Positions 1,461-30,011 of a stretch of 41,067 nt of DNA are shown here, piece after piece. The notes beneath the pieces are model-generated. The model saw only the letters and a list, made by a program, of their open reading frames with translations. It was not told where the DNA came from and ran no database searches. Both the position numbers and the translations under genes were made by a program. The DNA lies in NCBI GenBank assembly GCA_017859955.1, contig JAFNAB010000037.1:1-41067 (forward strand), given 5' to 3'. Position 1 is the first letter of the stretch. Every line of letters begins with the position of its first letter. Source of the stretch: Holophagaceae bacterium (GTDB taxonomy: Bacteria > Acidobacteriota > Holophagae > Holophagales > Holophagaceae).

Positions 1461-4442
1461 CTATCGATCGAGACGGACACGAAGTCGCCTCGCCCGTTCG
1501 CGAAATGCGGCTTCGCCACCCTCAAGGATGTCGCAGACTGCCCTACGGATCTCAGCGTTTTCCAGCCCACCCGCGACATAGCTGATCGGAGGCAGACCGC
1601 CTAAAGGATGCGGGCCGGCTTCAGCTACGATGATCTGATCCGCATCGGTGTTGATCACAAGGTTGGCGTTGTGCGTCACCATGATTACCTGGCGTTTCGC
1701 CTTCGCTGCGATGAACAGTGGCACTAGCTCGTCGAAGACGGACTTCGGGTCGAGATTTTCCTCGGGCTGGTCGATGATCAGAGGCCGGTCGTCAGAATGG
1801 TCTAGCGCGAGGTAGAGCAGCAACAGGACGATGCCGCGTGTACCTGGAGACAGTTTGCTGATGTCGATACCGTCGTAGGAAATCTCATAGCGGATGGCAA
1901 TATGGTTGGTTCCGAAGAGCCAGTGGGCGAACTGCTTTGACCACGCACGGAACTCATTTTGCTGGGTTGGGGCATATGGCGCGTGCGACAGGAGGTCTTT
2001 CAGGTATTTCCCCATGAAGGCCGTCATGGCGGCCTTCACGTCGGCGGCCGATCCGGTTTCCCATGCGGGATTGAGAGCGTTCGTCGCAGCTGCGATCAGC
2101 GAGCCGCGACCATAAAAGGCACCCGCCTTGCGTCGGTCGAGGAGCTGCTCTTCGGCAATCGAGCCCCAGGCCTGGACGTCGGCAATCCTGCGGACCGAAA
2201 AGCTCAGATTCTTGAGTGTGCCCGACGATGCGGAAAGGCGCGCCATCAGCGGTGCGTATAGGCCAGCCAGAGCGCCTTGCTCGTTGATGATGGCCTCGAA
2301 CACGCGGCCATAGGTTTCGTCGCGCTCAGTCTGCAAGTCCTTCCGTCGTGCTGCCGCACCCTGGGCGTCAGTGAGCCGCGTTTCCAATGTCTGAAGCGCC
2401 GAATTCTCCTGAGCGATCCGATTAGTGAGCGCTGTGTATTGCTCACGAACTAGCCTGTCCGCGCTGAACAGCGCCTCGAGTCGCGTCATCTCTGCGACGA
2501 TCAGCGCAAGAGGAAGCGCCGCGAGATCGGCGTCGTCGGCAATTAGGGCGACATTGGGATCGCCGGGCGACGACGGAACGCCGCTTAGCCTACAAATTTC
2601 ACCGTCGGCCCATGCGATATAGGACGTGAGGCTCTTTTCAACATCACCTTGGTAGATCAGCAGGAACTCGTCCCACTGTTTGGTGTCGAGGCCGCTGTCG
2701 TTGTGTCGCGTCTGGGTCTGGCGGAGCATTTCAGGTGCACCGGTGGCACGCATGCCGCGAACCTCGCTCTGCAGTGCGACGAAGGTGCGGCGCTGATTGC
2801 CGAGGGCATGGAGCTTGTTCCTGAGCCACTGCGCCGCCCCGCTTAGCTGGGTGTGTCTGGCGACCTGTGCCTCGGTGCCCTTGACCACTAGCTTGGCCTG
2901 GTCGGCGGTATAGTCGGCGATCAGCTTCTTCTTTTGCCCGACCTGCGTGATCAGGCTGGGCACGAGGCTCTCCTTCTCGAGCTCGGTGGCGATGCCGTCG
3001 GAAATGTCGGCAATCGCCTCCGCCTCGCGCTCTCGGGCTTGCTGGAAGCGAGCGGTCTGCTGCTCGCGAAGCTCGGCGAAGTCGAGCGCCCATTCGCGAT
3101 CGTCTTGCGAGTGGGATTCGAAGATAACACGCTCGATTTCTTCAACGAGACCATCGGAGACCCCCTTGGCCGAGCACAGTTCCTCGACGAATTGCTGGGA
3201 GAGATACCTCGCGCGCGGGAACGACGTATGGCCGTTAGCGTCGTCGCCATCGAGAGCGCGCGTCACCGTCGCGCCACCGCCCCAGGTCAGAGTCACGGTG
3301 GCATTACCGATTAGTTTGCGTGCGCGTGCAAGGAACGATGGGCTGATGGTCTCGTCGGCGCCCCAACCAGCTGGAGTTATTGCGTCGCATCCGGCAGCGA
3401 TCACATCGGCCAGCGCCGTCTTGCCCGAACCCCGCGCGCCAATGATGGCGACCAGGCCGGGATTGAGCGGAATATCGGGCGTGGACGCCCAATTCGCATC
3501 CTCGATCTGCACATGCGAGATGACCTGTGACGGCATGCCCGAGCTTGGTGACTGCTCGCCGACATAGGCACGGCCTTCCGGATCGATGCAGGCCTGCTTC
3601 AGGGCGTCGAACGCCAACGCACCCTTGATCCACGAGAAGCGATTGTCGACGGGCTGCCCCACGGACTTCTGGTCGTGGGAATCGCTGCCATGGAGACACG
3701 GCTTGCACCCGCCATAGCGCAAGCGCAGTTGTTCGACGCTGATGCCTCGTTGGCCGATCCAAAATTCACGCTGCGCGGGGTTGCTGGAGAAAATGATGTG
3801 GGCGAACTTTTCTATCTCCTGACGCACGGTCGCGTCGGCGGCCTGACGGACGCCGGAAGTGCCGTCACTGGCGCCGCCAGCAACGGCGATCAGAATGTTC
3901 TTTTTCGCCCATTCGCTCTCGTCCATAACCTTTCGCAATTGATCGAAATTGACCTTGAACTGCGTGGCACCGTGTCGGAGTGCCACGGCGTCGTCAGTGA
4001 TGCTTGAGTCTGCGCGTTTGCCCAGCTTTATCAGCTCCTCGCGCGTGCAGTCAAAGCGGTCGTTGAAGGCGTGGAATTGAAGACGCCTTAGGATGCGCTT
4101 CACCTCCGAGAGGTGATCGGGCTCTTCAGGGCTGACCAGCAAGTGGACGTTCACGAAGCCTGTTTTGGCCGCCACGTCGAGGCGTAGCTCGATGTTCGGG
4201 AAGAGCAGCGACACGCCGGGCAGTCGGCCTGCAGCCTTATGCTTAAGGAATTCCTCGTAGGTGTCGGTAACGTAGTAGTCGGTGACCGCGACCGCCTCGA
4301 CCTTCGGCGTCAGGCCTTCGAGTGTCGTGAGGTAGGAGTTCCAGGGGTCGGAAACACCGAACTGATTGTTAAGGATTGTGCCGGGAGCATGGATATGCGG
4401 CTCCCATCTGTGCCATTCAGAACCGCGACTGATCACTTCCAT
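1461..4442 (-). CDS. TrlF-type protein: PHP domain fused to ABC/SMC-like ATPase
   Basis: This protein of up to 993 residues joins a PHP-type metal-dependent phosphoesterase domain to a split ABC/SMC-like ATPase, the architecture of TrlF-family AAA-like ATPases. PHP metal-ligand motifs are HIH (16-18) and HGSDSH (251-256). Walker A is GARGSGKT (335-342). A long charged, probably coiled-coil middle follows. The ABC signature region LSPGTRG, Walker B IIDQPEENLD and H-loop THNAN come in the last 150 residues. All key motifs are intact. An ATG at 4442 has GGAG almost abutting it; the GTG at 4436 has better spacing. Such ATP-gated nuclease-like proteins often lie in defence islands, and AbiE and mobile elements are close, so a defence role is plausible but inferred. 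Confidence 0.85.
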   Translation of the reverse strand: MEVISRGSEWHRWEPHIHAPGTILNNQFGVSDPWNSYLTTLEGLTPKVEAVAVTDYYVTDTYEEFLKHKAAGRLPGVSLLFPNIELRLDVAAKTGFVNVHLLVSPEEPDHLSEVKRILRRLQFHAFNDRFDCTREELIKLGKRADSSITDDAVALRHGATQFKVNFDQLRKVMDESEWAKKNILIAVAGGASDGTSGVRQAADATVRQEIEKFAHIIFSSNPAQREFWIGQRGISVEQLRLRYGGCKPCLHGSDSHDQKSVGQPVDNRFSWIKGALAFDALKQACIDPEGRAYVGEQSPSSGMPSQVISHVQIEDANWASTPDIPLNPGLVAIIGARGSGKTALADVIAAGCDAITPAGWGADETISPSFLARARKLIGNATVTLTWGGGATVTRALDGDDANGHTSFPRARYLSQQFVEELCSAKGVSDGLVEEIERVIFESHSQDDREWALDFAELREQQTARFQQAREREAEAIADISDGIATELEKESLVPSLITQVGQKKKLIADYTADQAKLVVKGTEAQVARHTQLSGAAQWLRNKLHALGNQRRTFVALQSEVRGMRATGAPEMLRQTQTRHNDSGLDTKQWDEFLLIYQGDVEKSLTSYIAWADGEICRLSGVPSSPGDPNVALIADDADLAALPLALIVAEMTRLEALFSADRLVREQYTALTNRIAQENSALQTLETRLTDAQGAAARRKDLQTERDETYGRVFEAIINEQGALAGLYAPLMARLSASSGTLKNLSFSVRRIADVQAWGSIAEEQLLDRRKAGAFYGRGSLIAAATNALNPAWETGSAADVKAAMTAFMGKYLKDLLSHAPYAPTQQNEFRAWSKQFAHWLFGTNHIAIRYEISYDGIDISKLSPGTRGIVLLLLYLALDHSDDRPLIIDQPEENLDPKSVFDELVPLFIAAKAKRQVIMVTHNANLVINTDADQIIVAEAGPHPLGGLPPISYVAGGLENAEIRRAVCDILEGGEAAFRERARRLRVRLDR

Positions 4443-4808: not shown

Positions 4809-6278
4809 CGGAACTCCTAGGCGAGAAGCATGGTTAGAGTTAGGCGTTAAGGCGTGTCTAGTTTTCTGTGTGCCCAATCTCGGCGCAGGTAAAAGTATGT
4901 GATGATCGAACCGCACCCATGCCAACCCAGCATCCGAAATAGGCAGGCGACTTTTCACGGATGGCGGCTTTTTTCATTCCCCATGATGCTCCCATATGAG
5001 ACTTCTTGGAATGCCTTTTATGCCTACTTCACCTACTCCCGCATCACCCCTGGGCCTCCAGGTGGCGTGGTCCCACTGGTCACAGGCACGAACACCTCGC
5101 CAACATCCCGCGTCCGTAAAAGCTAGGCCGCCTTGCGATGATCCCCAGTTGTCCTCCTCCTACAGTTCGCGAACCATCCTCCGCCCCGCCCTATCGACCC
5201 AATGGGAAGCATGGAAACTTTGCTAAATTTTGCCGGTGTTTTAAATATAAGAATTAAATAAGGTTAAATCCATCGGAGTCTTGACCCTGTAACCGAATCC
5301 GTCTCAGCCTCCCTCGCATGGATCTGGACCCGCAGTACCCGGAGCTGGATCGGACCGGCGATTTTATCGGCTACAAGGTCGTCAAGCGCCTCGACAACTG
5401 CTCCGCCTGCCGTCCCTTCCTCCAGGGCATTGCTAAGCCCGGTAACGGCTTCAGCCGCGGCCCAACGGGCTATCGAGGAGCTGCCCCCTGTCCACAGAGA
5501 AGAAAGCCTTCTTCCTGGCCCGCGTGCCTAAGGCGCCGGAGCCTCCTTTCCCCCTGCTCGCCGATGAAGCCCGACGCTCGGCCACCCGCTCCGGGTAGCT
5601 CGCCGCCAATGCCCGCAGTGCCTCCCTGAACTCCTCTGTGTTGAGGCTGGCGTAGTCTAGATGGGGCAAGTCAAGATGACGATCGCTCATCCGGGGAGCA
5701 TATGCTCGGGACAGACGGTGAGCCACACGAAACCCGGGCGGGTCACCCTTTAGGGGATTCCAGTCGATCCACATGGCCTCATTCAGACACTCCTTCCGGT
5801 TCGCGCCGGAGGCGATCACCTCTGACAGGCAGCCAGAGGCGCCCCAGGCGCGCATCAGAGGCCGTAGCCTCGATCCACGCCAGCGACCATTCCGGTGTTT
5901 CGCCCTAAGCGACAGTCGCCACAGCTAGGGCCTGGAGCGTTGGCGAACCAGCAGCTTCCGCCCGTCCGGGTCCCGCTCCTTGACGGACGCCATCCCCGCC
6001 ACTTTTGCGGCGTAGGCCTGGATCACTTGATCAAGGGTCAGGGAAGGCATGGGATTGAAGACACTCCAGTTTCATTTTCAGCAATCCCCGTTGGCCAGTC
6101 GAAAGACAAGCACGCCTCAAGCACTTGGGACTGCCCAGGGCTATCCGGAAACCCCAGAAGGATTGGGGCTCTGGGGGCAAGCCGGCGTCCGGCCGGAGGC
6201 CCGGGAGCAGGCACTCCCTACAGGCAACTCGCACCGGTGCGTATCCCACCAAGGGCCACCAGATCTGCATGTTTACTC
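4809..6278. other. 1.5-kb stretch without an intact gene
   Basis: I find no convincing complete gene here. A notably AT-rich patch at about 5222-5275 stands out against GC-rich surroundings and could be a promoter. The plus-strand frame from 5318 (opening MDLDPQYPELDR) looks natural for about 40 codons and then becomes proline/arginine-rich, so it may be the start of a truncated gene. The minus strand carries the decayed gene described at 5451-6048. Confidence 0.5.
5451..6048 (-). pseudogene. Decayed gene, first copy of a duplicated family
   Basis: On the minus strand an ATG at 6048 opens a natural-looking 41-codon start (MPSLTLDQVIQAYAAKVAGM, then the motif ERDPDGRKLLVR) that ends at an early stop. 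Downstream frames on the same strand to about 5451 (for example NTEEFREALRALAASYPERV) look like the remainder of a protein broken by frameshifts. The AAKVA..MAS..ERDPD.RKLLVR block recurs in the remnant at 8653-9000, so two diverged copies exist. Function is unknown to me. Confidence 0.4.
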
Positions 6279-6316
6279 AAAAATTAATGAATATTGTTAA
6301 AAATTAAGCATTGTTT
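6279..6316 (+). promoter_or_regulatory. AT-rich tandem repeats upstream of the AbiE operon
   Basis: Two adjacent direct repeats (6279-6298 and 6299-6315) share AAAAATTAA and ATTGTT in the same order, in an AT-rich island just before the ATG at 6345. AbiEi-type antitoxins are known to bind repeated sites in their own promoter, so these are good operator candidates; the repeats are seen, the binding is inferred. Confidence 0.45.
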
Positions 6317-6344
6317 TTTTAACGCTTTTCCTCATACTTTCCCC

Positions 6345-7025
6345 ATGGCGTATAGCAGTCACTCTCCCTCCAACCCGACCCCTGAGCCCCTGCCGGGGCC
6401 CAGGGCCAGCGAGGCTTCCATCAGCAAGCAGCTGGAGGCAAGGATCCGCCGTCAGTCCAAGGCCTATCCAGAGCGGGTCTTCACGCCCTCGGACTTTTCT
6501 GACCTGGGATCCCCCCACAGTGTCGGCATGGCCCTCATGCGCCTGGTCCGGACGGGTGCCCTCAGGCACCTCGCCAGAGGCCTCTACGATGTCCCCAGGA
6601 CCCACCCCCTGCTCGGTGAGCTCCTCCCCACGGCCGAGGCCATCGCCCAGGCCCTGGCCCGCCGCGACGGGGCGACCCTGCTCCCCATGGAGGCCATGGC
6701 AGCAAACCTCCTGGGGCTCTCGGAGCAGGTTCCGGCCAAGGCTGTGTTTCTCACAGACGGGCCCGACCGTCTGGTGACCATCGGGCCCCTCACCGTTCAA
6801 CTCCGGCAGCGGCCGGTGAAGCAAGTCAGCAAGCCCGCCCCCACCAGCAGCCTGGTGTTCGCCGCGCTCCGAAGCCTGGGTAAAGAGCATGTGAGCCTGG
6901 AACGAGTCAGCCACCTGCAGGAGACCCTTTCGGCCAAGGACAGGAAGCGCCTGATGAAGGACCTGCCCCTGGCCCCGGCCTGGATGCATCCCTTCCTGCG
7001 CCATATCGCCGGAGAGAAGCCGTGA
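6345..7025 (+). CDS. AbiEi-type antitoxin, winged-helix transcriptional regulator
   Basis: A 226-residue AbiEi/DUF6088-type antitoxin. The N-terminal winged-helix part is seen at about residues 25-85 (VFTPSDFSDLG, LVRTGALRHLARGLYDVP), followed by the C-terminal antitoxin domain. In the AbiE family the antitoxin blocks the nucleotidyltransferase toxin and represses the operon. The ATG at 6345 is preferred to the longer frame beginning with TTG at 6294, because the extra residues are non-conserved in character. Its stop overlaps the toxin start in GTGA, so translation is probably coupled. Candidate operator repeats lie just upstream. Confidence 0.88.
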   Translation: MAYSSHSPSNPTPEPLPGPRASEASISKQLEARIRRQSKAYPERVFTPSDFSDLGSPHSVGMALMRLVRTGALRHLARGLYDVPRTHPLLGELLPTAEAIAQALARRDGATLLPMEAMAANLLGLSEQVPAKAVFLTDGPDRLVTIGPLTVQLRQRPVKQVSKPAPTSSLVFAALRSLGKEHVSLERVSHLQETLSAKDRKRLMKDLPLAPAWMHPFLRHIAGEKP

Positions 7026-8044
7026 CCCCCTTTGCCCTCCAGCCTGCCGCCGAGCAGCGGGTGCTCATCGAGCAGATCGCTGCCCGCCGGGGCATCCTCC
7101 CCCTCATTGTCGAGAAGGACTTCTGGGTCTGCTGGGTGCTCGGGCGGGTCTTTGCCACGCCCGGCGTGGCCGAGAGCCTCGTATTCAAGGGCGGCACCAG
7201 CCTTTCGAAGGTCTTTGGAGTCATCGATCGCTTTTCCGAGGATGCGGATCTCTCAGTGAGTCCCGCGGTTCTCGGCTTCACCGAGACCGACCTGGATGAA
7301 GCACCCTCGGCCACCCAGCGCAGCAAGCGAATGCAGCGGCTGGCCGCCGCCTGCGAAGACCATGTGCGTGAGGTCATCCAACCACGCCTGGAAGACTCCA
7401 TCCAGGATGTCCTGGGCCTTCCCAAGGGAGGGGCCCCCTGGCTGAGGTTTGAGATCGACCCGGTCGCGGGCACTCCGAACATCTGGTTCCGCTATCCCTC
7501 CGTCCTGCCCCAGGCCGGAGGCTACATCGCCAAGCAGGTGAAACTGGAACTCGGGGCCCTCACCGACCAGCAGCCCACCGGCCGTCACACCATCCAGCCC
7601 CTGCTCGCCGATGCCCTCGGCCTGATCTTCGACGACTTCCAGTGCCCAGTGGTGGCCCTGGAGATGGAGCGCACCTTCTGGGAAAAGGCCACCATCCTGC
7701 ATGCCGAGTTCCACCGCCCCGCCGGGCAGCCGATCAAGGACCGATCCGCCCGCCATTACTCGGATATGGCGGCCCTGTGGCGCCACCCAGGCCGCAATAG
7801 GGCCCTGGAGCGGATGGATCTTTTGGCAGATGTCGTGCGTCACAAGAGCCGTTTCTTTGCCTCCTCCTGGGCCAGCTATGACACAGCCATTGCGGGGTCC
7901 TTTCATCTCCTGCCACCGCAGGTTCGGGAAGCGGAACTTGCGAGAGACCTCCATGCGATGAGCCCGATGTTCCTGGGCGCTTCGCCAACCCTGGCCTCCA
8001 TCCTCCAGGCCCTCGCCGAGGCTGAGGCTGCCCTGAACAGCTGA
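7022..8044 (+). CDS. AbiEii-type nucleotidyltransferase toxin
   Basis: A 340-residue toxin of a type IV (AbiE) toxin-antitoxin system. AbiEii-family enzymes are DUF1814 nucleotidyltransferases, related members of which modify tRNA 3' ends. The conserved motifs are present: FKGGTSLSK (about residues 58-66), the acidic pair in RFSEDADLS, ERTFWEKAT..H and RHYSDM. It starts at a GTG that overlaps the antitoxin stop by four bases. Length and motifs are normal for the family and no break is visible, so the pair looks functional. A phage-defence role by abortive infection is known for AbiE and inferred here. Confidence 0.9.
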   Translation: MTPFALQPAAEQRVLIEQIAARRGILPLIVEKDFWVCWVLGRVFATPGVAESLVFKGGTSLSKVFGVIDRFSEDADLSVSPAVLGFTETDLDEAPSATQRSKRMQRLAAACEDHVREVIQPRLEDSIQDVLGLPKGGAPWLRFEIDPVAGTPNIWFRYPSVLPQAGGYIAKQVKLELGALTDQQPTGRHTIQPLLADALGLIFDDFQCPVVALEMERTFWEKATILHAEFHRPAGQPIKDRSARHYSDMAALWRHPGRNRALERMDLLADVVRHKSRFFASSWASYDTAIAGSFHLLPPQVREAELARDLHAMSPMFLGASPTLASILQALAEAEAALNS

Positions 8045-9010: not shown

Positions 9011-9147
9011 TTAGCGTTTTGGCTTTCTACCCGGGACGCGTGGCCTAAAGAGGTCGTCCTCTGCATCCGCACCAGGCACCTCATCCTCATCAAAAATCCG
9101 GGAATCAACACGACAAGCGGGTTCCCCGAACTCTGGAGCGACACCAG
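9011..9147 (-). other. Open, acidic reading-frame tail after the 274-residue gene
   Basis: Downstream of the stop at 9148 the frame shared with the relaxase stays open and reads naturally (ELSDLTGVAPEFGEPACR, then DEDEVPGADAEDDL) to a stop at 9011. It has no obvious start codon of its own. It may be a coupled small gene, a C-terminus joined by a frameshift, or chance. Confidence 0.3.
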
Positions 9148-12100
9148 TTAAGTCACTGAGTTCTCGCAGGTCACATCGACCCAAAGACCGCCCATGTGAT
9201 CCAGCAGCATGACCAGCATGCTCATCTCCTCTCCCGCCAAGCAGATCGTCGTACCGACCACCGTCGGAACGACCAGATGACCCGTTTCCTGGTGCCGAAG
9301 TAAGGGAGCCTCTCCCGCCCGAATGCAGTCCCCGGAACGGATGAGCAGAGGGACCATCGCACCGACCTGGGGGCTCATCCACGCAAGCCAGAGGTCGGGA
9401 CTGGGGGCCACCGGCAACGCCATGGGGGGCACGACAATCCTCCCCCGTTTCGTGGGGTCCAGAAGGCGGGTGGTCAACACTTCCTCCGGCATCGCCATCC
9501 ATAGCCCGTACACCAGATCCTCCTTGAAGGCTGGCCAGGCTTGGCCCAGCGCCCAGCGGGCCTCGTCCGGAAGCAGACGAGAGAGAACCAACGGCAAACA
9601 AAGCACTTCCGTTACATAGGGAGCCGACCACACCATCCAGACCTCGGAAATCACTCTCTCGGCATACTGCGCGAGCTTCTTCCGGAGAAATGGCGGAATT
9701 ATCTGGGGATTTTCCTGCCGGTGCCTCATCGCCCACGCTCCATCCTCCGAATCGAGGCGAAGCAAACCAGCCGCTTCCGCCAGTTCCCAGGTATTCAGAG
9801 CCTTCGACTCTGGGTTCACCCACGGATCCAGAAAGGGACGGGAAGCGAGCTTCCACGGTGCCTGCTGGACGAGAGCCCAGGTAGGCAACACAGGCGCAGT
9901 ACCTACGGCGACGTCGGTCGCGGGGTCGGTAACCTTTTCGTGGATAGGGGTCACCTTCAACGTGCTGTTCATGGCGTTCTCCTTTTTCAGGCCAAAATCC
10001 AAAAAATCCCATTAACTTACTGAGCGGCCGATTTGCGCTGGACTCATGGCCCTCCTTCCAGGAGCCAGATGAAAATTCCACCGCCAATACGTCATTCGGA
10101 CACGCCTTATCCCCACCGAACCTCTCCAGCACGCCTCCAACCCAACTTGCCACCCCCAAAGTGTGCGCAGCCAGTCGCACCCACTGCCCCCAGCCCTTCA
10201 AAGTCTGAGTGAGGCGCCCGAAGCGGATGTCTCGGAGAGGCCACTGCCGTATGCCTCCAGCAGCGGTTGCCACAGGAATGCCTCTGGCCTCTGCTCCCGA
10301 GCCTCCACCCAACAGAGGTTGAGGGCCGCCTGCGATCGGTAATCCGGCGTAGCGGCCCAATTCGGGACCTTCGCCTGCTCTCTGAGCCAGTGCTCCAGGG
10401 CGGCCAATTCCTGACGCGTCGTAGGGACCTGCTGACCGGGCTGCCACCCTGGCAACTCCTCCCAAACGCTGGACGGAACATCCGGCCACTGCTTCACGGG
10501 CATCACCCCCAAGGTCGTAAGCGCCACGGAAGCTACGACTTCCAGAACCGGCTGAAGCAGGAGCTGAGGTACCTGCCCAGCAGGTTCCAGTTGCCCTGCC
10601 ACCATATCCCACCGGGCTGGCAGGAGACTCAAGGCCTCCTGCTCTGCCTGCCGAAGGAACGAACCCAGAGCCCACCCTGGCACTGCAATGAGAAGCCCCT
10701 CTGGGAGGTAGGAGCACTGTCCGGACACCGCCCTCAACTCCTTGGAGGAATAGGGTGCCCACGGCTTGCCTCGCTTCAGGGTCTCCTCCCACTTCCCCTC
10801 GGGGCCAAAGCGCCAGTTCCGCACCGATGCGGGGAATCTCCGGGCTTCCTCGGCCTGTCGGACCCAGGTCTCTATCCCCCGAGGCGGCACCCACTCCCTC
10901 GATTCCGGAGGCCGAGAATCGAAGGGCGCCAGCTCCGGGGTCGGACGCATTTCCCATTTCTGGGCATGTTTCCAACCCAGAGCCTGCCAAGCAGTTAGGC
11001 TCTCCTGGTACTCCAACCTCAACGCATGCACCCGCTCGTTCCACACCGCCCGATCCGCGGCGTAGGCTTTCCGGGCCTCCTGGTCCTGGAGACTCCCCGT
11101 GAAGATCGGCTCCGCGGGCAGGAGCGGTTCCGGAGGAGCCTTCCCTTGGGCGCGAGCCACCTCCTCCATGGGAACCTCGATCGCCACTCGCCGCCAGAGC
11201 AAGCGTCGCGTGAATACCCGGCAGCACAGCAGCCACCAGGGAGCCGCACTTGGCTCGGACCTCTGAAAGTCGGGCAAGCCCGAGAGATGTGAGCCGGTAC
11301 GCGACTCTTCCATTTTCTCTATCTCCTCTCAAATGACCGGCTTTTTTCAACTTGCTCAGCAAATTGCAATCGCTTTTCTCGAGAAAATCCGTCCGAAGAC
11401 CTCCTTCCCCGGCCGAATGGACCAGAAGGAGAATCCGTGAATAGTCCGAGGTCCACCGAATCCGAGCCTTTTTACTGGAGTCTGCGAGATCGACGGGGCT
11501 CCCTCCGATGGCCATCACCACCCCAAGCACTTCATTCCGCTTCTCCTGGACCAGTTCCGCGGCGGAATTGAATTGCGGGCCAACGCCCGGCAAGGCAATC
11601 CCCGCCTCCAGTCGCACCTGGGCCACAGCCAGGTCCTGCTCATAGAGAGCTAGCCGCCTCGTCAGTTCTTCAGCCCCCAGGATGGCCCCACCATCACCCA
11701 AGAAGCCTAATAAATTCATCTTTTGGACAATGACTTTCCGCCTTTTCTCACCAGAAAGAGGGCCGAGCAATGCTTGAGTCTCTGCTCCGCCCAAGGCTTT
11801 GCGAAGCAACTCGAGTTCCCTCGATGTTAGAGGAACGGTTCCCCCAAGGGCTGACTTCATCTCTTGGAAAGCCAGTATCTCAGCCCTTCTCTTGCGTTTA
11901 ACGCTTCCTGCCAGAATCACCAAACCGTCAGGACCGTGTACAGTCGCGCCCTGCACCTGCCCTGCCCCCGCAGATGCAGGGCCACGTTGGAGCTCCACCC
12001 GGAAGCCATGCTCAGCGGCTTTTGCCACCATGGCCTCCGTCACCCGAGCACGTCCTCCACCAGGCTTGGACATGTTCCGCACACAGCTGCCGTTATCCCA

Positions 12101-12682
12101 GGTGCGCCACTCCCGCAGGTGCCAAGCGGGGAAAAAGGTAAGGACGTGAGCGTGATAGTGAGTTTCTCCTGCCCGATTCTCGGCGTGATAGTAAACAAGC
12201 GTGAGCGTCTGAGCGGCATGCCACTCCCGCTCACCCTTTCCAGCCCGGACACGGACAGCCTGCCGCTCGACCTCCTGCCGATGCGCGCGAACGCCCGCTG
12301 CCAGCACTTCCCGGGCCCTTTCGGGGTAGTCAGCCAGAGCCTGGCTCAGCTCGCACGGCAGAGTCACGAGGGCCTCTTTGGGGGGCCGAAAGAACCCGTT
12401 CCCCCGGGTCAACTTGCCGTGTGCCCGATCACACCCATGGGCCAAGTTGTGTATCAGGTCCGGCGGCGGAAGTTCGCTCTTACTCGGGTCCCACCCCAAC
12501 CCCTGCCACAGTTCCGGGTGCCACACCTCTGGGCGGACCCGTCCATCGCGGCTCAGATACCCGTGACAGGTCTCGAAGCCACCGGCCTCAGTCCGGCTTT
12601 GCAGGTGTGTGCCGAAGTATTCGACCACGCCGGCAGCCGTTCGTGCACCGGCCTCGGCATCATACCGGATCAGCACGTCCAC
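9011..12682 (-). CDS. TrwC/MobF-like relaxase at the start of a 1,223-codon open frame
   Basis: Only the first 480 or so codons (12682 to about 11240) look like a protein. They resemble a divergent TrwC/MobF relaxase, the enzyme that nicks DNA at oriT for conjugative transfer. The metal-binding triad is seen as H166 with HYHAHV (175-180) after an ENRAGET segment, and a tyrosine lies near the N-terminus (Y22). A winged-helix-like segment follows at about 415-460. Beyond that the frame stays open for 2.2 kb but is Gly/Arg/Ser-rich and overlaps two more natural genes in another frame, so it is probably not all translated. It starts at GTG, 16 bp after the accessory gene. Confidence 0.5.
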   Translation of the reverse strand: MDVLIRYDAEAGARTAAGVVEYFGTHLQSRTEAGGFETCHGYLSRDGRVRPEVWHPELWQGLGWDPSKSELPPPDLIHNLAHGCDRAHGKLTRGNGFFRPPKEALVTLPCELSQALADYPERAREVLAAGVRAHRQEVERQAVRVRAGKGEREWHAAQTLTLVYYHAENRAGETHYHAHVLTFFPAWHLREWRTWDNGSCVRNMSKPGGGRARVTEAMVAKAAEHGFRVELQRGPASAGAGQVQGATVHGPDGLVILAGSVKRKRRAEILAFQEMKSALGGTVPLTSRELELLRKALGGAETQALLGPLSGEKRRKVIVQKMNLLGFLGDGGAILGAEELTRRLALYEQDLAVAQVRLEAGIALPGVGPQFNSAAELVQEKRNEVLGVVMAIGGSPVDLADSSKKARIRWTSDYSRILLLVHSAGEGGLRTDFLEKSDCNLLSKLKKAGHLRGDRENGRVAYRLTSLGLARLSEVRAKCGSLVAAVLPGIHATLALAASGDRGSHGGGGSRPREGSSGTAPARGADLHGESPGPGGPESLRRGSGGVERAGACVEVGVPGEPNCLAGSGLETCPEMGNASDPGAGALRFSASGIEGVGAASGDRDLGPTGRGSPEIPRIGAELALWPRGEVGGDPEARQAVGTLFLQGVEGGVRTVLLPPRGASHCSARVGSGFVPSAGRAGGLESPASPVGYGGRATGTCWAGTSAPASAGSGSRSFRGAYDLGGDAREAVAGCSVQRLGGVARVAARSAGPYDASGIGRPGALAQRAGEGPELGRYAGLPIAGGPQPLLGGGSGAEARGIPVATAAGGIRQWPLRDIRFGRLTQTLKGWGQWVRLAAHTLGVASWVGGVLERFGGDKACPNDVLAVEFSSGSWKEGHESSANRPLSKLMGFFGFWPEKGERHEQHVEGDPYPRKGYRPRDRRRRRYCACVAYLGSRPAGTVEARFPSLSGSVGEPRVEGSEYLGTGGSGWFASPRFGGWSVGDEAPAGKSPDNSAISPEEARAVCRESDFRGLDGVVGSLCNGSALFAVGSLSSASGRGPLGAGPSLASLQGGSGVRAMDGDAGGSVDHPPSGPHETGEDCRAPHGVAGGPQSRPLACVDEPPGRCDGPSAHPFRGLHSGGRGSLTSAPGNGSSGRSDGGRYDDLLGGRGDEHAGHAAGSHGRSLGRCDLRELSDLTGVAPEFGEPACRVDSRIFDEDEVPGADAEDDLFRPRVPGRKPKR
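9148..9972 (-). CDS. Hypothetical protein of the mobilisation-like block
   Basis: A 274-residue protein that I do not recognise. It is rich in tryptophan and proline, has no clear signal peptide or transmembrane segment, and its composition is natural (for example PWKLASRPFLDPWVNPESK and LAQYAERVISEVWMVW). The ATG at 9972 is supported by AGGAG six bases upstream; the frame extends to 10002 without a better signal. It lies last in the minus-strand block after the relaxase and the 371-residue gene, suggesting cotranscription. It is nested in another frame that is open across the whole block. Confidence 0.65.
   Translation of the reverse strand: MNSTLKVTPIHEKVTDPATDVAVGTAPVLPTWALVQQAPWKLASRPFLDPWVNPESKALNTWELAEAAGLLRLDSEDGAWAMRHRQENPQIIPPFLRKKLAQYAERVISEVWMVWSAPYVTEVLCLPLVLSRLLPDEARWALGQAWPAFKEDLVYGLWMAMPEEVLTTRLLDPTKRGRIVVPPMALPVAPSPDLWLAWMSPQVGAMVPLLIRSGDCIRAGEAPLLRHQETGHLVVPTVVGTTICLAGEEMSMLVMLLDHMGGLWVDVTCENSVT
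10003..10201 (-). other. Possible small coupled ORF between the two hypothetical genes
   Basis: The stop of the 371-residue gene sits in TTGA, giving a possible TTG start at 10201 in the relaxase frame. The next 60 codons read naturally (KGWGQWVRLAAHTLGV, then VGGVLERFGG), but the frame has no stop before the next gene begins at 9972. A real stop would need a one-base shift near 10015. Tentative. Confidence 0.25.
10198..11313 (-). CDS. Hypothetical protein, 371 residues, tryptophan/proline-rich
   Basis: I do not recognise a family. From about residue 49 (MEEVARAQG) onward the sequence is natural, with many Trp, Pro and Glu residues and no membrane segment. The ATG at 11313 has GAGAGGAGA at good spacing, yet the first 45 or so residues are arginine/cysteine-rich and overlap the part of the relaxase frame that still looks like coding sequence. 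The true start may therefore be at 11169 or the protein may be joined to the relaxase by a frameshift. Context is a minus-strand mobilisation-like block. Confidence 0.6.
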   Translation of the reverse strand: MEESRTGSHLSGLPDFQRSEPSAAPWWLLCCRVFTRRLLWRRVAIEVPMEEVARAQGKAPPEPLLPAEPIFTGSLQDQEARKAYAADRAVWNERVHALRLEYQESLTAWQALGWKHAQKWEMRPTPELAPFDSRPPESREWVPPRGIETWVRQAEEARRFPASVRNWRFGPEGKWEETLKRGKPWAPYSSKELRAVSGQCSYLPEGLLIAVPGWALGSFLRQAEQEALSLLPARWDMVAGQLEPAGQVPQLLLQPVLEVVASVALTTLGVMPVKQWPDVPSSVWEELPGWQPGQQVPTTRQELAALEHWLREQAKVPNWAATPDYRSQAALNLCWVEAREQRPEAFLWQPLLEAYGSGLSETSASGASLRL

Positions 12683-12698: not shown

Positions 12699-12971
12699 TT
12701 AGCGAGGTATCACTTGCAGGGCCCGGCGGAGTGCCGTGCCACCGGCCTCCAGAAGCGCTGCAACCAAGGCTCGGTTATCCAGGTGTAGCCCCTCAGCAGC
12801 TACCACGATGGCCCTCCAGTGTTCTGCCGCGGGCCCAGTGAGGGTCACTTTTAAGGTCACCTGCCCCGAAGATCGCCCCGCCAACTGAGCCTCGATCTGC
12901 CGGGCCAGACGACTGCTCCTCGTCTGTCGACCCCTCGCCACTTCCCTGGCCTCAGCCTCGGTCCCGTCCAT
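12699..12971 (-). CDS. Small protein upstream of the relaxase, possible relaxosome accessory
   Basis: A 90-residue basic protein opening MDGTEAEAREVARGRQ, with an arginine-rich N-terminal third and a helical C-terminus (LDNRALVAALLEAGGTALRR). I recognise no domain. The ATG at 12971 has AGAGGAGGG upstream. It sits 16 bp before the relaxase, the position of DNA-binding accessory genes such as mobC in mobilisation operons; that role is inferred from position, size and charge. Confidence 0.55.
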   Translation of the reverse strand: MDGTEAEAREVARGRQTRSSRLARQIEAQLAGRSSGQVTLKVTLTGPAAEHWRAIVVAAEGLHLDNRALVAALLEAGGTALRRALQVIPR

Positions 12972-19466: not shown

Positions 19467-20279
19467 TCATTGTAGTGGGGAATCGTTGAGGAGGGCTTTG
19501 AGGGCCCGGTTGTCGTTGGCGAGTTCTTCGACGAGGTTCAGGTATTCGCGGACAAGCCTCTGGCTGATTTTCACGGCATAGCTGATCTCCTGGACGTTGA
19601 AGCCCTTCTGGTGACAGAGGAGCACCTGCTTGAAGGCCTTGAGGTAGCGGTGGGCGGCTTCGGGGCTGTGATCGGTGGCTCGGCAGACTTCCTCGACCTT
19701 GCGGCCTTCGAGCACGATCATTCGGACGATCTGGCGCTTGTGGGTGAGGGTCGGGCCAATGTCATGGATCACGCCTCGGCGCGGGAGGTAGCGCCCGTGT
19801 TCAGCCTCCCAGGTCCTGGCGTAGTGGCTCACGGTGCTGGGCGAGATCTTGAGGAGCACGGCACAGTCGCTGTTCGTGAGTACCCCGTCCTGTTCAAAGG
19901 CCTGCTGGAACAGGCGGGCCACAGCCTCCTGCTTCTGCTCCCGGAGTTTCATGCCTGCAGCCCGGTCCTGAGCATCCCGCCCCTGCACCAGATCCAGGAT
20001 TACCGGCGTCAGGCGGCTCTGGGTGATGCGCTTGCCGTAGGAGGCCTTCTCCAGCTTGTGGACGGCCGTCCATTGGATCTGCCCCTGTCGCAGGTGGCTG
20101 GTCTGGGGATAGAACTTCCTCACGAGATCCGCGATGAGCTGGACCAGCACCTGGCGGGTCTTGGCTCCCCCGAGCTGGGGGCATTCGTTGGCAAAGAAGG
20201 ACTCCAGCGCCCCTTCGAAGTTCTTGAACTGCATAGGGCCGTAGATGCTGTGATGCTGCTCGGTCTGCTCTCGCATCAT
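19467..20279 (-). CDS. DUF1670-family protein
   Basis: A 270-residue protein of the DUF1670 family, of unknown function. The C-terminal half contains two helix-turn-helix-like segments (LKISPSTVSHYARTWEAEHG at about 145-165 and VEEVCRATDHSPEAAHRY near 205), so DNA binding is plausible. The ATG at 20279 overlaps the stop of the upstream paralogue in ATGA, and GGAGG precedes it, so the two genes are translationally coupled. No break is visible. It lies between the VOC cluster terminator and the thiol-redox island. Confidence 0.75.
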   Translation of the reverse strand: MMREQTEQHHSIYGPMQFKNFEGALESFFANECPQLGGAKTRQVLVQLIADLVRKFYPQTSHLRQGQIQWTAVHKLEKASYGKRITQSRLTPVILDLVQGRDAQDRAAGMKLREQKQEAVARLFQQAFEQDGVLTNSDCAVLLKISPSTVSHYARTWEAEHGRYLPRRGVIHDIGPTLTHKRQIVRMIVLEGRKVEEVCRATDHSPEAAHRYLKAFKQVLLCHQKGFNVQEISYAVKISQRLVREYLNLVEELANDNRALKALLNDSPLQ

Positions 20280-21158
20280 GGCCTCCCGCTCGTGCTGGAG
20301 GTTTCTGGCCTGGGCAAAGGTCCCCCCTTTTTGAGGTCCTCAGCCTCGTAGTGCTGTGCCCCGATCAGATCAATCTCTTGGAACCGCCGCTGGTAGGCCT
20401 TCCTGTGGCGGTGCGCCTCGTAGATGTCCAGGAAGGTCCGGGTGCCTCCGGACGAGATGCCCACGGTCAGTGCAATCTGGAGGGGATGGAATCCCTTCCG
20501 GGCCAGGAACACGACCCGGCAAAAGGTGTGGATGTAGCGCTCCACGGCGTGCAGGGTGTGGTTGATCCGCCGGGCCACCTCCACGGCCTCCAGGCCCTCC
20601 AGCCAATGGCCGATGGCCGATGGCGACACCCTTATGGGAGACCCCGGGACCGATGTCCTGGATCTGCCCCCGCGTGGCCACAAAGATGCCCTGCTGCTCG
20701 CGCAGCTCCCTGACGTCCCGGCGGATGGTGCGCGTGTCGCTCTGCAGCAGCAGCGCCAGATCCTCCTGGCTGAGCAGGCCGCCCTGCTCACGGGCCTCCT
20801 CGGTGAGCCGCTGGATCAGAACCTTCCGTCGGGCGGCCTGACCCAGGCGATGGATCAGCTGTAGGTCGTCCTTCCCTTCGAATAGCGTGAGGACCACCGT
20901 GACCATCCGACATTCCCGGATCGGTTTGCCTGCCCCTTGCCCCGCCGCCACGCACTCGTAGCGCATCTGCCCCGTCCGCAGTGGACCAGCACCCGGCTCC
21001 GTGAAGTAGACCTCTCGGGTCATGGTTACCAGGACATCGGCTTCCCAGGGGCTCAACCCCGCTCCCTGGACCGCCAAAACCTTCAATCTCTGGTCCTGGG
21101 TCTTCAGTTCCAAACGTCGGGCTTGATCTTCAACCCTGTTCTCGGTTGTCATCATCAT
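20276..21158 (-). pseudogene. DUF1670-family protein, disrupted by a 7-bp duplication
   Basis: A paralogue of the following DUF1670 gene. From the ATG at 21158 (AAGGAG upstream) the frame is normal to GQIQDIGPGVSHKGVAIGH, then leaves frame. The correct frame resumes as AIGHWLEGLEAVEVARRI and continues to TGA at 20276, overlapping the next start. The break coincides exactly with a 7-bp tandem duplication at 20608-20621; removing one unit restores a continuous protein of about 290 residues. This could be a recent mutation, a phase-variable site or a sequencing error. Confidence 0.8.
20608..20621. repeat. 7-bp tandem duplication causing a frameshift
   Basis: Two adjacent copies of GGCCGAT on the plus strand. 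One copy fewer restores the DUF1670 reading frame on the minus strand. Confidence 0.85.
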
Positions 21159-21190
21159 GGGTTTCTCCTTGGGTGGCCTTAGCAACCAAA

Positions 21191-24197: not shown

Positions 24198-25091
24198 TTA
24201 GCTATTTACCTTAATGGATGCCGATTTATTAAAGTTAGCATCCTTAAGAATAATGGCCACTATCAATGACAGACTCAACAGTGCAAATGCCAGAAGTCCG
24301 ATTTGGAGCGCTGTCATGCCTGCCCAGACAACGGCATCCCGATCGCCGTGTAGGAACTCCAGTCCGAAGCGCAGGAGGGAGTAGCCTCCCAGGTGAGACC
24401 AGAAGGCCTGACTCCATGATCCCTGGGCTTTCGTCAACCTGCGGACCAGAAGGAGGATCATGACCGCGAGCAGCAGATCCCCGAGAGCCTCGTAGAGCTG
24501 GGTGGGATGAAGCGAAGCCGTCATCAGGGACCCCGGATCCGTGAAGCCCTGCCGAACGCTCCATGTCCAGACTTCGCTTGGAACGCGGTCATCGGGAGCC
24601 AAAGAGGGGAAGAATACCCCGAACTTGGCCATGGGGACGCCCCATGGCAGGTGGGTCGGCGTGCCCCAAGCATCCCCGTTCAGGAAGCACCCAACCCGAC
24701 CGATGGCCTGCCCAGCCAACACGGCGGGGCTGGCGATGGCAAAGGAACGCCAGAAATCAGCACCTCTTCTTTTGAAAAAGAGAAAGGCTGTAAGGACGCC
24801 TCCCGCAAGTCCACCCGTGATGGAAAGCCCCCCCTCCCATAACCGGAAAAACGAGAGGGGTGCGGTAAGCAGCGACCCCAGATCCCAGAAGGCGAAGTGG
24901 AAGACCCTGGCGCCCACGATGGCGCCTAGGATGATCCACACGAGACTGTCCAGGAAGACCCGGCTACCGAGTCCAGCCCGCTCCAAACGTCGGACGATCC
25001 AGACCGCAGCCACCAGAATGGACACGAAAAAGTAGAACCCCTCATAGAAGTAGGCGGTCTTGAACCCCATATTCAGATGGACAGGCCACAT
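24198..25091 (-). CDS. lgt: Prolipoprotein diacylglyceryl transferase (Lgt) homologue
   Basis: A 297-residue multi-pass inner-membrane protein of the Lgt family, which transfers diacylglycerol to the lipobox cysteine of prolipoproteins. The family signature GQAIGRVGCFLNGDAWG (about 127-143), GLSITGGLAGG and HPTQLYEALGDL are all present. It is at the distal end of the minus-strand thiol-redox cluster, an unusual place for a housekeeping gene, so it may be a second, cluster-specific copy with a particular substrate. That is inference; whether the genome has another lgt is not visible here. Confidence 0.88.
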   Translation of the reverse strand: MWPVHLNMGFKTAYFYEGFYFFVSILVAAVWIVRRLERAGLGSRVFLDSLVWIILGAIVGARVFHFAFWDLGSLLTAPLSFFRLWEGGLSITGGLAGGVLTAFLFFKRRGADFWRSFAIASPAVLAGQAIGRVGCFLNGDAWGTPTHLPWGVPMAKFGVFFPSLAPDDRVPSEVWTWSVRQGFTDPGSLMTASLHPTQLYEALGDLLLAVMILLLVRRLTKAQGSWSQAFWSHLGGYSLLRFGLEFLHGDRDAVVWAGMTALQIGLLAFALLSLSLIVAIILKDANFNKSASIKVNS

Positions 25092-25137
25092 GAGATCTCC
25101 TGAAGATGGTTATGGGAGCCACCCGTCAGAAGTTCCG

Positions 25138-25330
25138 TCACCGGAGACCCGAGAACCCTCGGGCCTCCAGGAGGTTCCCTGTGGCTTGCTCCAACCCCGT
25201 CACGGCCTCGGCATACCCGATCTGGGCCTGGAGATCTTCTTTCCGCAGACGGTGGGTCAACTGCGCGGCCTTCACTCCCTCCTGGGTTGCCTCGACGCTC
25301 AGCGTGTGGGCGCGGGTCCAGGTGCTTCCC
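25138..25330 (-). pseudogene. TolC-type outer-membrane efflux protein, C-terminal fragment
   Basis: The minus strand encodes the helical C-terminus of an outer-membrane efflux factor (VEATQEGVKAAQLTHRLR, DLQAQIGYAEAVTGLEQA, then NLLEARGFSGL) ending at TGA 25138. It has no start and no upstream part. Its 5' end overlaps, in another frame, the 3' end of the rhodanese gene. It looks like the residue of a deletion that removed an efflux operon between the two. Confidence 0.6.
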
Positions 25331-25772
25331 CCCCGGCGATGGGACGGTCGGCTCTCGCCCAGGCTCGGAAACCATCCCGGAAGGTCCTGACTCCTGTGAA
25401 CCCAAGCTCCCGCAAGCGTTGCGCCAGGAACAGGCTATCCGTGCTGCAACACCCATTGCAGTAGACGATCATGGGTTTGTTGCGATCGGCTTGTGGGCTT
25501 TTCAGGAAGGCCGCCAGACGGGGTTCGAAATCCTTCTCCCAGATTGGGAGGTTCAGGGCGCCTGGGATATGCCCATAGAAATAGTCCTCTGGCGAGCGGG
25601 CGTCCAGAAAGAGAACGCCCTCCTGAAAACCGCTCAGGGTTTGGCTGAATGAGGCGATCGGGACGGCTGGAACGCCAGTTTCCGTTGGCGGAGGGGTCGC
25701 CACCAACGGGGGAACACCGCCCAGAAGAAGGAGTGTCAGAATGCAGCCTTGCAGATGTTCAAATGGCCTCAT
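25299..25772 (-). CDS. Exported rhodanese-domain protein
   Basis: A 157-residue protein with a signal peptide-like start (HLQGCILTLLLLGGVPPLVA) and one rhodanese domain in the rest (FLDARSPEDYFYGHIPGA, then the active-site loop YCNGCCSTDS). Rhodaneses carry sulfur or selenium as a cysteine persulfide; the extra cysteines in the loop are unusual. It would act in the periplasm. The 3' end overlaps a TolC fragment, so its C-terminus may be altered (PGPAPTR). It lies in the minus-strand cluster with CcdA and thioredoxins. Confidence 0.82.
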   Translation of the reverse strand: MRPFEHLQGCILTLLLLGGVPPLVATPPPTETGVPAVPIASFSQTLSGFQEGVLFLDARSPEDYFYGHIPGALNLPIWEKDFEPRLAAFLKSPQADRNKPMIVYCNGCCSTDSLFLAQRLRELGFTGVRTFRDGFRAWARADRPIAGGEAPGPAPTR

Positions 25773-25842
25773 GACATGTCCCCGATCTGGAACCTGTCAA
25801 GTCGCCAGGCCGTGACTGGGATTGCGAGCCCCATGGGCCGGG

Positions 25843-26025
25843 TCATCTCGCACTTCCACCACGGCCCGGACCTGGCAGGCTCGGCCTTCCCGTGGAGGCG
25901 ATGCCGTTCCCCAATGTGGGGGAAGGAGATAGCGCCTCGATGTAGCAGTCCTCGCAGAGCTTCTTCCCCTGGAAGTCGGAGGCGTCATTCTCCTGTATGG
26001 ATTTCTTGCAGATGGCACATTCCAT
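25843..26025 (-). CDS. Small LIM-like zinc-finger protein
   Basis: A 60-residue protein with MECAICKKSI and KLCEDCYIEA, closely matching the N-terminal half of the 124-residue protein at 21353-21727 but without its winged helix. The tail after residue 32 is Gly/Ser/Pro-rich. ATG at 26025 with GGAG upstream. It may be a truncated paralogue or a genuine stand-alone zinc finger. It lies 23 bp after the DGC-domain gene. Confidence 0.6.
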   Translation of the reverse strand: MECAICKKSIQENDASDFQGKKLCEDCYIEALSPSPTLGNGIASTGRPSLPGPGRGGSAR

Positions 26026-26048
26026 GGCGGTCTCCGGGGCGCAATCGC

Positions 26049-26417
26049 TCAAACCTGGGGAACTTCTTTCTGGATTCGCTGAGTCATATCCGCGATGACG
26101 GTTTCGTCGATCAGGGTCTTCCCCTTCTCCACACCCAGTTCTGTCAGGACGAAGGATGTGTGGGGCAGCCCGCGGCGTTCGAAGATCTTGCGCCCGCATG
26201 CGGTGGGACACCCATCGATTACAAGATTCAGTTCCGAATCCCGGGCGCTCTTGAGGTAGCCCTCCAGTTCTGCGCCGATGGCCGCCAGGCAGAACATCTT
26301 GGCGTCTCCCTGGAGATTGAGACGTCGGGCCACCTGATCAGCCAGATAGCCGGTGTTGGCTGCGCCAGAACAGGCGAAAACCAAGTGCTTGGAGGAGGCA
26401 GAGCAGTTGCATTTCAT
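26049..26417 (-). CDS. DGC-domain putative zinc-binding protein
   Basis: A 122-residue protein of the DGC-domain type, named for the motif seen here as VIDGCPTACGRKIFE (about 66-80). Other conserved cysteines include CNCSAS and FACSGAAN at the N-terminus and MFCLAAIG near 43. The family is thought to bind zinc or another metal via its cysteines, but its role is not established. The ATG at 26417 has AGGAG upstream. It is in the minus-strand operon between ccdA and the zinc-finger gene. Confidence 0.78.
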   Translation of the reverse strand: MKCNCSASSKHLVFACSGAANTGYLADQVARRLNLQGDAKMFCLAAIGAELEGYLKSARDSELNLVIDGCPTACGRKIFERRGLPHTSFVLTELGVEKGKTLIDETVIADMTQRIQKEVPQV

Positions 26418-26451
26418 GGGATCTCCTTGTGGGAATGGGCCTGGGGAAGCC

Positions 26452-27162
26452 TCAAGCCGGGAAACGGGTCTTCCAGGCGAGCATGAGCACCCAGAGAGCG
26501 CAGCCGCTCAGGAGAAGCCCCATGGTCTTGGGCAGCCAGCGGCCTAGGACCTGGGAGAAGCGACTCTGGGCATACTTGCTGGCCCAACCCGAGGAAGCCC
26601 CCGCCAGGAAGAGGAGCAGGACATGGCCAAGGGCATAGACAAAGAGCAGCACGCCGCCCCAGAGGACCTGCTTCTGGAGGGCCACCAAGGTGAGCACCGC
26701 CGCCAGGGCTGGGGTGGCACAGGGGGCCGAGAGGGTTCCGGTCAGCCCTCCCAGGGCGAAGGCCCCGAGCAGGCCCGCACCCTGGAAGCGGTGCAGGTGT
26801 CCATGGGCCTTGAAGGGCAGCGCGTAGAGGCCGAGCAGGTGCAGACCGATGCCCAGCAGGACTAGGCCGAGGATGGCCTTCCAGCCCCAACCGATATCCC
26901 CCAGCAGGGAGCCTGAGATCGCCGCCAGAAGGCCCAGGGCCGTAAAGGCCGCTGCGAGGCCCAGCACGAAGACCCCCGAAAGGACTACCGGGTGGTGGCG
27001 GCCCTCGCTGGTGCCCCCAGTGAAGCCCACCACCAAAGGGGCGGCCACCAGGACGCAGGGATTGGCCGAAGTCAGCAGCCCGCCCAGGAAGACGATGCCG
27101 AGCTGCTGATAGGCCGGGGCCTGGGCGACCGCATCGGCAAGACGTTCGACTAGGCCACCCAC
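26452..27162 (-). CDS. ccdA: CcdA-type transmembrane thiol-disulfide transporter
   Basis: A 236-residue six-helix membrane protein of the CcdA/DsbD family that moves electrons from cytoplasmic thioredoxin to extracytoplasmic thiol proteins. The two conserved redox cysteines are seen in TSANPCVLVAAP (first helix) and LSAPCATPALA (fourth helix). It starts with ATG at 27162, overlapping the stop of the preceding exported thioredoxin gene, which is its likely partner. Confidence 0.88.
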   Translation of the reverse strand: MGGLVERLADAVAQAPAYQQLGIVFLGGLLTSANPCVLVAAPLVVGFTGGTSEGRHHPVVLSGVFVLGLAAAFTALGLLAAISGSLLGDIGWGWKAILGLVLLGIGLHLLGLYALPFKAHGHLHRFQGAGLLGAFALGGLTGTLSAPCATPALAAVLTLVALQKQVLWGGVLLFVYALGHVLLLFLAGASSGWASKYAQSRFSQVLGRWLPKTMGLLLSGCALWVLMLAWKTRFPA

Positions 27163-27548
27163 TACTTCAATCCAGCCTTGGCCAGGGCCGAGATGAATTC
27201 ATCCTTGCCCCAGAAACCGACGTGGCGGAGGACCTCCTTGCCGCTGGCGTCGAAGATCACCTGGGTGGGCATGGCCATGACCCGGTGCTTCCGGGCTTCC
27301 TCAAGGTACTGGGTCACGTAGAAGTTCCGGACGTTTGCCCGATTGCCATACTGCCGCTGGAGCTGTCCTAGAATGGGCTGCATCTTCACGCAGGGAATAC
27401 AGGTAGGGCCACCGAACTCAATAACGCTCCACTTGCCGGATTTGAGGGTCTGCTGAAGCCCTGCGGGGTCGAGGGCGGGCACGGAACTCTGGGCTGACAG
27501 GGCGGCTGAAGCGACCAACACCAGGGCGCTGAGGCGCGGAAGACTCAT
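27162..27548 (-). CDS. Exported thioredoxin-like protein
   Basis: A 128-residue thioredoxin-fold protein with a signal peptide (LSALVLVASAALSAQS). The active site is CIPC in FGGPTCIPCVKMQPIL (about residues 52-67), and the cis-proline is in VMAMPTQV. ATG at 27548 with AAAGGAG upstream; the longer frame to 27590 is not needed. It is immediately upstream of ccdA (one-base overlap), so CcdA probably keeps it reduced in the periplasm. Confidence 0.87.
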   Translation of the reverse strand: MSLPRLSALVLVASAALSAQSSVPALDPAGLQQTLKSGKWSVIEFGGPTCIPCVKMQPILGQLQRQYGNRANVRNFYVTQYLEEARKHRVMAMPTQVIFDASGKEVLRHVGFWGKDEFISALAKAGLK

Positions 27549-27586
27549 GGTGACTCCTTTGAAATGGGTGGACGGGTGTGTCGGAA

Positions 27587-27820
27587 TCAACCCTGCAAGA
27601 ACTTGAGGATCTCGTCAGGACTGGCGGCCTTGCCCTGGATGCGGAGCTTGCCGTCGATGGCCAGGGCGGGGGTGGAGAGGATGCCCCGGGCAGCCATGGC
27701 CGCATAGTCGGAGATCTTGACGATCTCGTGGGCGCCGCCAGACTGCTCCACGGCGAGCTTGGCATTCTTGGCGAGGGTCTCGCACTTGGCACAACCGGGA
27801 CCAAAGACTTCGATAAGCAT
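27587..27820 (-). CDS. Small thioredoxin-like redox protein (CAKC)
   Basis: A 77-residue cytoplasmic thioredoxin-fold protein of the redox-active disulfide protein type. It begins MLIEVFGPGCAKCETL, giving the CxxC site at residues 10-13, with the cis-proline in LSTPALAIDG. Such short proteins often sit next to ArsP-like permeases. It is 8 bp downstream of the permease gene and likely cotranscribed. Confidence 0.87.
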   Translation of the reverse strand: MLIEVFGPGCAKCETLAKNAKLAVEQSGGAHEIVKISDYAAMAARGILSTPALAIDGKLRIQGKAASPDEILKFLQG

Positions 27821-27828
27821 GGCTTCTC

Positions 27829-30005: not shown

Positions 30006-30011
30006 AAACGT

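Follow-up and report, generated by a model that had tools for sequence, protein, structure and literature searches.

A relaxase frame of a Holophagaceae bacterium stays open across two complete genes in another frame of the same strand, and relatives within the family repeat this arrangement. We analysed a 41,067-nucleotide stretch of DNA (the window), one whole contig of a 3.76-Mb draft genome in 224 contigs. From the reading frames, it is very probable that the relaxase frame and the nested genes are both coding. We read the relaxase frame as being translated through the nested genes because the arrangement recurs, because the frame holds no stop where 29.0 were expected, and because a basic end is conserved beyond the nested genes. 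Both frames were open over the shared DNA for nine nested genes in eight loci, and selection on the second frame was seen in stop avoidance, in a matched control and in the conserved tail. Taken whole, a conserved overprinted gene set on mobilisable Holophagaceae elements, with the mechanism proposed below, is the account we consider probable.

Layout of the relaxase region

The relaxase frame (9011-12682, minus strand, GTG start) is free of stops over 1,223 codons and crosses both nested genes, as a preliminary description of this DNA had stated; we delimited it from the ORF list and from stop avoidance. Its first ~480 codons (11243-12682, minus strand) are the conserved core, a trans-esterase of the TrwC/TraI fold and, after it, a region that weakly matches ArsR/MarR-type winged helices, as found by Pfam, homologue search, an AlphaFold model and fold and profile comparison. 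The two nested proteins of 371 and 274 residues, described earlier in another frame of the same strand, were recovered from the ORFs at 10198-11313 and 9148-10002. Both genes share one frame, +1 relative to the relaxase, and sit entirely within the relaxase frame. Nested gene 1 (10198-11313, minus strand) has 371 codons and an ATG start, and is weakly homologous to the nested genes of the loci L020, L022, L023, L024 and L056 (hhalign E 8e-4). Nested gene 2 lies in an ORF of 284 codons (9148-10002) and most likely starts at the ATG at 9972, which leaves 274 codons (9148-9972, minus strand); its start was placed with the ribosome site, and profile comparison detected no homologue. As described, a good ribosome site of the AGGAG type precedes each ATG, at 11323-11327 for gene 1 and at 9979-9983 for gene 2 (both minus strand). 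The start at 9972 moves the gap between the nested genes from the 10003-10201 first described to 9973-10197 (minus strand), which the open relaxase frame spans. The other segment then named, the C-terminal tail of the relaxase frame past the last nested stop (9011-9147, minus strand), stands as described and ends in RPRVPGRKPKR. Directly upstream of the relaxase lies a 90-codon gene (12699-12971, minus strand), a putative relaxosome accessory gene; tblastn found matches to it in L014, L015, L016 and L021, in each case upstream of the relaxase.

Homologous loci and stop avoidance

A search of 100 sampled genomes with the first 480 codons hit nine, among them the genome of the window itself. A profile search with a 12-row alignment, built from the 12 loci then known, collected 15 loci in 12 of 77 Holophagaceae genomes. 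The same profile hit 12 of 93 genomes in a sample of the class, all of them the same ones, with nothing further; in a sample of the phylum, matches outside Holophagaceae were weak and limited to part of the domain. Searches of plasmids and of viral contigs gave no useful lead, nor did searching genome contigs with the window protein.

The 15 loci fell into two architectures. Eight were overprinted: in these the relaxase frame crosses a complete +1-frame gene and ends 122-254 nt past the nested stop (window 137, L019 254, L020 122, L021 191, L022 143, L023 167, L024 185 and L056 128 nt). The first nested gene starts at relaxase codon 426-464 in all eight, and the window alone has a second, at codon 904. 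In the remaining seven (L014-L018, L055 and L057) the relaxase carries an in-frame C-terminal part and terminates where, or close to where, a downstream gene in the +1 frame begins. When starts are best placed the two genes share about 11-20 nt, except in L016, whose relaxase ends 8 nt short of the downstream gene. The preliminary description had named, as evidence that would refute it, close homologues whose relaxase frame has stops just past codon 480 while the nested genes are unchanged; none turned up. In the nearest homologues, L014 and L015 (42% identity), the relaxase stays in frame to about codon 630, and the downstream gene showed no detectable relation to the nested genes by profile comparison. 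In a tree of the relaxase core, drawn like the motif counts below from 14 of the 15 loci (L057, which has no N-terminus, was left out), the eight overprinted rows form one side of a branch with weak support (65/71), so that one origin or one loss would suffice.

This recurrence decided between the options first put forward, which were overprinting, frame-switching between segments and sequence error. The same arrangement in independent genomes excludes sequence error. That assembly or sequencing fused the frames, a thought invited by the fragmented draft from which the window comes, has a negligible chance of being right, as the arrangement is also found in other genomes, one of them assembled as a single contig (G015, which carries L022). 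Frame-switching is unneeded because the relaxase frame is itself open and each nested gene is equipped with a start and a ribosome site of its own. Overprinting, in contrast to these two, is borne out by eight of the 15 loci, by the lack of any relaxase-frame stop over nine nested genes and by the conserved C-terminal end downstream.

The nested genes have 202-371 codons, and all nine have their own ATG and a purine-rich ribosome site. A codon-position GC profile, the check proposed with the preliminary description, gave the nested genes a normal GC1/2/3 pattern (GC3 0.73-0.89) and the relaxase frame across them a shifted one. As the normal third-position signature belongs to the nested frame, we infer that this frame came first and that the relaxase was extended over it later. 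In 15 of 15 loci the gene that is nested in the relaxase or lies downstream of it is in the +1 frame, as it would be if programmed +1 frameshifting fused the relaxase core to the nested protein and the open relaxase frame were a by-product. We regard such fusion as quite improbable. Frameshifting needs no open original frame, yet stops have been purged from the relaxase frame; all nine nested genes can start on their own; and the +1 phase is also the one that dominates long same-strand overlaps of bacterial genes (phase-1; PMC2542354).

We next turned to the absence of stops. A relaxase-frame stop requires a nested codon ending in T followed by a codon beginning with AA, AG or GA. Shuffles that kept each nested protein and its codon counts and permuted synonymous codons predicted 38.9 stops over the nine nested genes (2,687 codons in eight loci), where none was found. 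Scaling to the codon-context bias of 112 host genes lowered the expectation to 29.0, for which the Poisson probability of none is ~3e-13. Both values refer to ATG-to-stop shuffles of nine genes; an earlier shuffle had used stop-to-stop frames of eight genes, without L056. In the window, nested genes 1 and 2 hold no stops against 8.9 and 7.9 expected by shuffling and 6.4 and 6.2 after scaling. The downstream genes of the seven non-overprinted loci, a matched control, carry 77 stops vs 90.7 expected.

These counts bear on a simpler reading, in which the relaxase functionally ends near codon 480 and a GC-rich nested gene happens to leave its (3,1,2) shadow frame stop-free. Host codon context does lower shadow stops somewhat (observed/expected 0.85 over 141 control genes, 4 of which have none). 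As control genes we used ORFs in place of annotated genes, choosing the longest non-overlapping ones with 200 codons or more; the 112 used for scaling were those of the 141 with GC3 0.65-0.92. In these 112 the observed/expected ratio is 0.21 for TAA, 0.27 for TAG and 1.13 for TGA; the bias thus accounts for avoidance of TAA and TAG, not of TGA, which is the commonest expected stop. Taken singly, four of the eight overprinted loci (L021, L023, L024 and L056) have scaled expectations of only 1.2-1.7 stops, and each of these alone could be open by chance. The expectation is 3.6 for L019, 3.2 for L020, 3.7 for L022 and 12.6 for the window alone. Chance openings would not yield eight of 15 loci at such expectations. 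The split into long and short relaxases was made on openness itself, though the loci had been collected by similarity to the N-terminal core alone. Chance openness of the set was rejected by the synonymous shuffle, by codon permutation and by the host-gene control. Against none in nine nested genes, the matched genes carry their 77 stops, and a basic C-terminus recurs past the nested stop. We therefore hold chance openness to be highly improbable and retain overprinting. Among the non-overprinted loci, the L014 downstream gene (5892-6653) has 3 relaxase-frame stops vs 9.4 expected, which could reflect partial clearing of stops, an overprinted state since lost, or noise.

The basic tail, the overprinted peptide and the nested proteins

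After the nested stop, the relaxase frame of seven overprinted loci ends in GRKPKR (window), GRSRKR, ATRRR, PGRKR, PGRRR, RGRK or MTRKR, while that of L019 ends in FRPRLP, which is not basic. At least two of the last three residues are K or R in 7 of 8 overprinted loci vs 69 of 1,106 control ORF ends, and all three are in 5 of 8 vs 5 of 1,106. The binomial probabilities, ~3e-8 and ~1e-10, treat the loci as independent, though they are partly related. Codons and stop codons of the tails differ between loci, which places the conservation at the level of amino acids; such conservation could hardly persist unless ribosomes reached the tail in the relaxase frame. The tails SHGHK and SHGRRI of non-overprinted relaxases were considered as the same signal and dropped, as they overlap the start codon of the next gene.

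The peptide between core and tail is less constrained. Similarity of the shadow peptides beyond that imposed by the nested frame was slight in ten pairs from five of the nine nested genes (score z 0.0 to 2.0, identity z -0.8 to 1.7). A first pairwise test had looked positive because stops in the shuffles were penalised; it became weak once stop cells were left out, and we do not claim sequence conservation of the shadow. Across the set, the Cys codons TGC and TGT are depleted in the relaxase frame while TGG is not, although the window's own overprinted stretch is not Cys-poor (2.2%). With the shadow peptide hardly conserved, selection is visible only in openness, in fewer Cys over the set and in the tail. 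Gly, Pro, Ala, Arg and Ser abound in the overprinted stretch, and hydrophobic residues make up 13-22% of it vs 28-32% of the core, a composition as expected for a linker.

A barely conserved shadow peptide would also suit a frame kept open for reasons of translation or mRNA, such as coupling to the internal starts or protection from termination, with the extended protein idle. The basic C-terminus, conserved as amino acids through different codons 122-254 nt past the nested gene, tells against this, as does the loss of TGC and TGT but not TGG. We judge an idle extension to be unlikely and favour a translated, functional tail.

Type IV secretion signals of one known kind consist of positive residues clustered at the C-terminus, and a VirB/D4 system can recruit MobA via its last 48 residues (PMC10025392). 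By their sequences, the ends of seven of the eight overprinted loci form such a cluster. Among 11 host genomes, coupling proteins were found in three (PF10412) and two (PF02534), and none lay on any relaxase-bearing contig; this rarity suggests mobilisable elements that would use a secretion system in trans.

Five nested proteins (L020, L022, L023, L024 and L056) align with a mean column identity of 41%. Weak links join window gene 1 and the L019 protein (hhalign E 1e-3) to these five, and profile comparison related neither the L021 protein nor window gene 2 to the family. Window gene 2 had been taken by eye for a relative, as had the downstream genes of the non-overprinted loci; profile comparison supported neither. 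The nested proteins that were scanned fitted no family in Pfam, NCBIfam or PADLOC, and a nested-protein model was poor (pLDDT 57.5), with no PDB match at E <= 0.001.

We propose that translation of one mRNA would start at the relaxase start and again at the strong internal ribosome sites. Ribosomes on the relaxase would pass through the nested genes in the shadow frame, adding the basic tail last, while those starting internally would make the nested protein or proteins in the +1 frame. An older downstream gene was presumably overrun as the relaxase lengthened at its 3' end, and the overprinted stretch would be a flexible linker presenting the tail. The tail would most likely be the signal by which a type IV coupling protein, provided in trans, recruits the relaxase, and the nested proteins may be co-produced mobilisation accessories in the manner of MobB. 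These two roles together are a tentative proposal to which we give a little under an even chance.

The relaxase core, known systems and neighbouring genes

Residues 78-232 of the core match Pfam TrwC just above the cut-off (26.4 bits, cut-off 25), and the NCBIfam MobF score is 28.7 bits with a cut-off of 100. An AlphaFold model of the core (pLDDT 86.6) matched 27 PDB chains at E <= 0.001 in Foldseek, all of them TrwC/TraI relaxases (best E ~1e-6, probability 1.00), which places the core in the HUH trans-esterase fold of MOBF. The core sequence profile matched TraI at E ~2e-9; the winged-helix fold matches in the last part of the core have E above 0.1. A three-histidine motif (H166 in 14 of 14 loci, H177 in 13, H179 in 14) aligns with the histidine stretch of TraI and presumably binds metal. 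In motif I, Y22 occurs in 12 of 14 loci and H26 is invariant (L014-L024, L055, L056 and the window); the MOBF tyrosine pair is absent from motif I in these 14. MOBF relaxases have two or more tyrosines there and a C-terminal SF1 helicase domain, and MOBV relaxases use histidine as nucleophile (PMC12857230). When all 1,223 residues of the frame were scanned, Pfam and NCBIfam yielded only TrwC/MobF and no helicase domain. By analogy, the nucleophile of this relaxase may be a histidine. The core shares fold and histidine motif with the MOBF relaxases TrwC (R388) and TraI (F, pKM101, pCU1); unlike them it has no motif I tyrosine pair and no detected helicase, and it scores below the NCBIfam MobF cut-off. 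It is TrwC-like, and we do not call it a member of MOBF.

To our knowledge, gene overprinting of this kind is rare outside viruses, and long, fully embedded and evolutionarily retained overlapping genes have seldom been accepted in bacteria. The relaxase gene mbeA of ColE1 overlaps the small mobilisation genes mbeB and mbeD in another frame. The ColE1 relaxase, however, is of the MOBP(HEN) type (PMC12857230), whereas the Holophagaceae core has the TrwC fold. The closest precedent is RSF1010 (IncQ), where mobB, which is needed for mobilisation, likewise lies as an accessory gene inside the relaxase gene mobA/repB in a different frame (PMC2200642). RSF1010 MobA is a MOBQ relaxase (PMC12857230), unlike the TrwC-fold core of the window. 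The Holophagaceae genes also differ from RSF1010 in that the nested genes reach 202-371 codons, up to two lie in one relaxase, and past them the relaxase runs on to a basic tail that is conserved. The likeness to RSF1010 is seen in the gene arrangement, and the scans of nested proteins against Pfam and NCBIfam gave no fitting family. We did not find the arrangement described in the literature on Holophagaceae relaxases and relaxase overprinting that we covered, mostly papers open without subscription.

We see roughly even odds for a broader reading. A TrwC-fold relaxase lineage would have built its whole C-terminal part (about 265-770 residues) by shifted-frame reading of neighbouring genes, and would have kept these frames clear of stops through deep divergence in order to attach a basic secretion tail. 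In the window, 645 codons in two complete genes would be covered in this way, which may be one of the longest conserved same-strand overprints of any bacterium, and the invariant histidine may replace the MOBF tyrosines. If true, a protein can gain its C-terminal half, export signal included, when its gene extends at the 3' end across a neighbour. The case offers a comparative control, with overprinted and non-overprinted relatives within one family, together with statistical support for selection acting on the second frame, and its functional hypothesis is simple; other relaxase operons are worth searching for the same arrangement.

Several other genes of the window were noted. Beside the relaxase region, on the plus strand, a DUF6088 and AbiEii pair (6294-8044) resembles a type IV toxin-antitoxin-like abortive infection module. 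A 993-codon ATPase-like protein (1461-4442, minus strand) matches several candidate anti-phage ATPases, Ppl best, and an IS1595-type transposase lies at the contig end (158-1195, plus strand). The genes at 24198-31718 (minus strand) encode an ArsP-like permease, an ArsR-type regulator, Lgt, a thioredoxin, a DsbD-like protein, a rhodanese and a disulphide reductase, an apparent metal/redox island. Three overlapping ORFs at 19467-21185 (minus strand) match DUF1670. Two of the three match consecutive sections of the profile, each in a frame of its own, which suggests a frameshifted copy beside an intact one.
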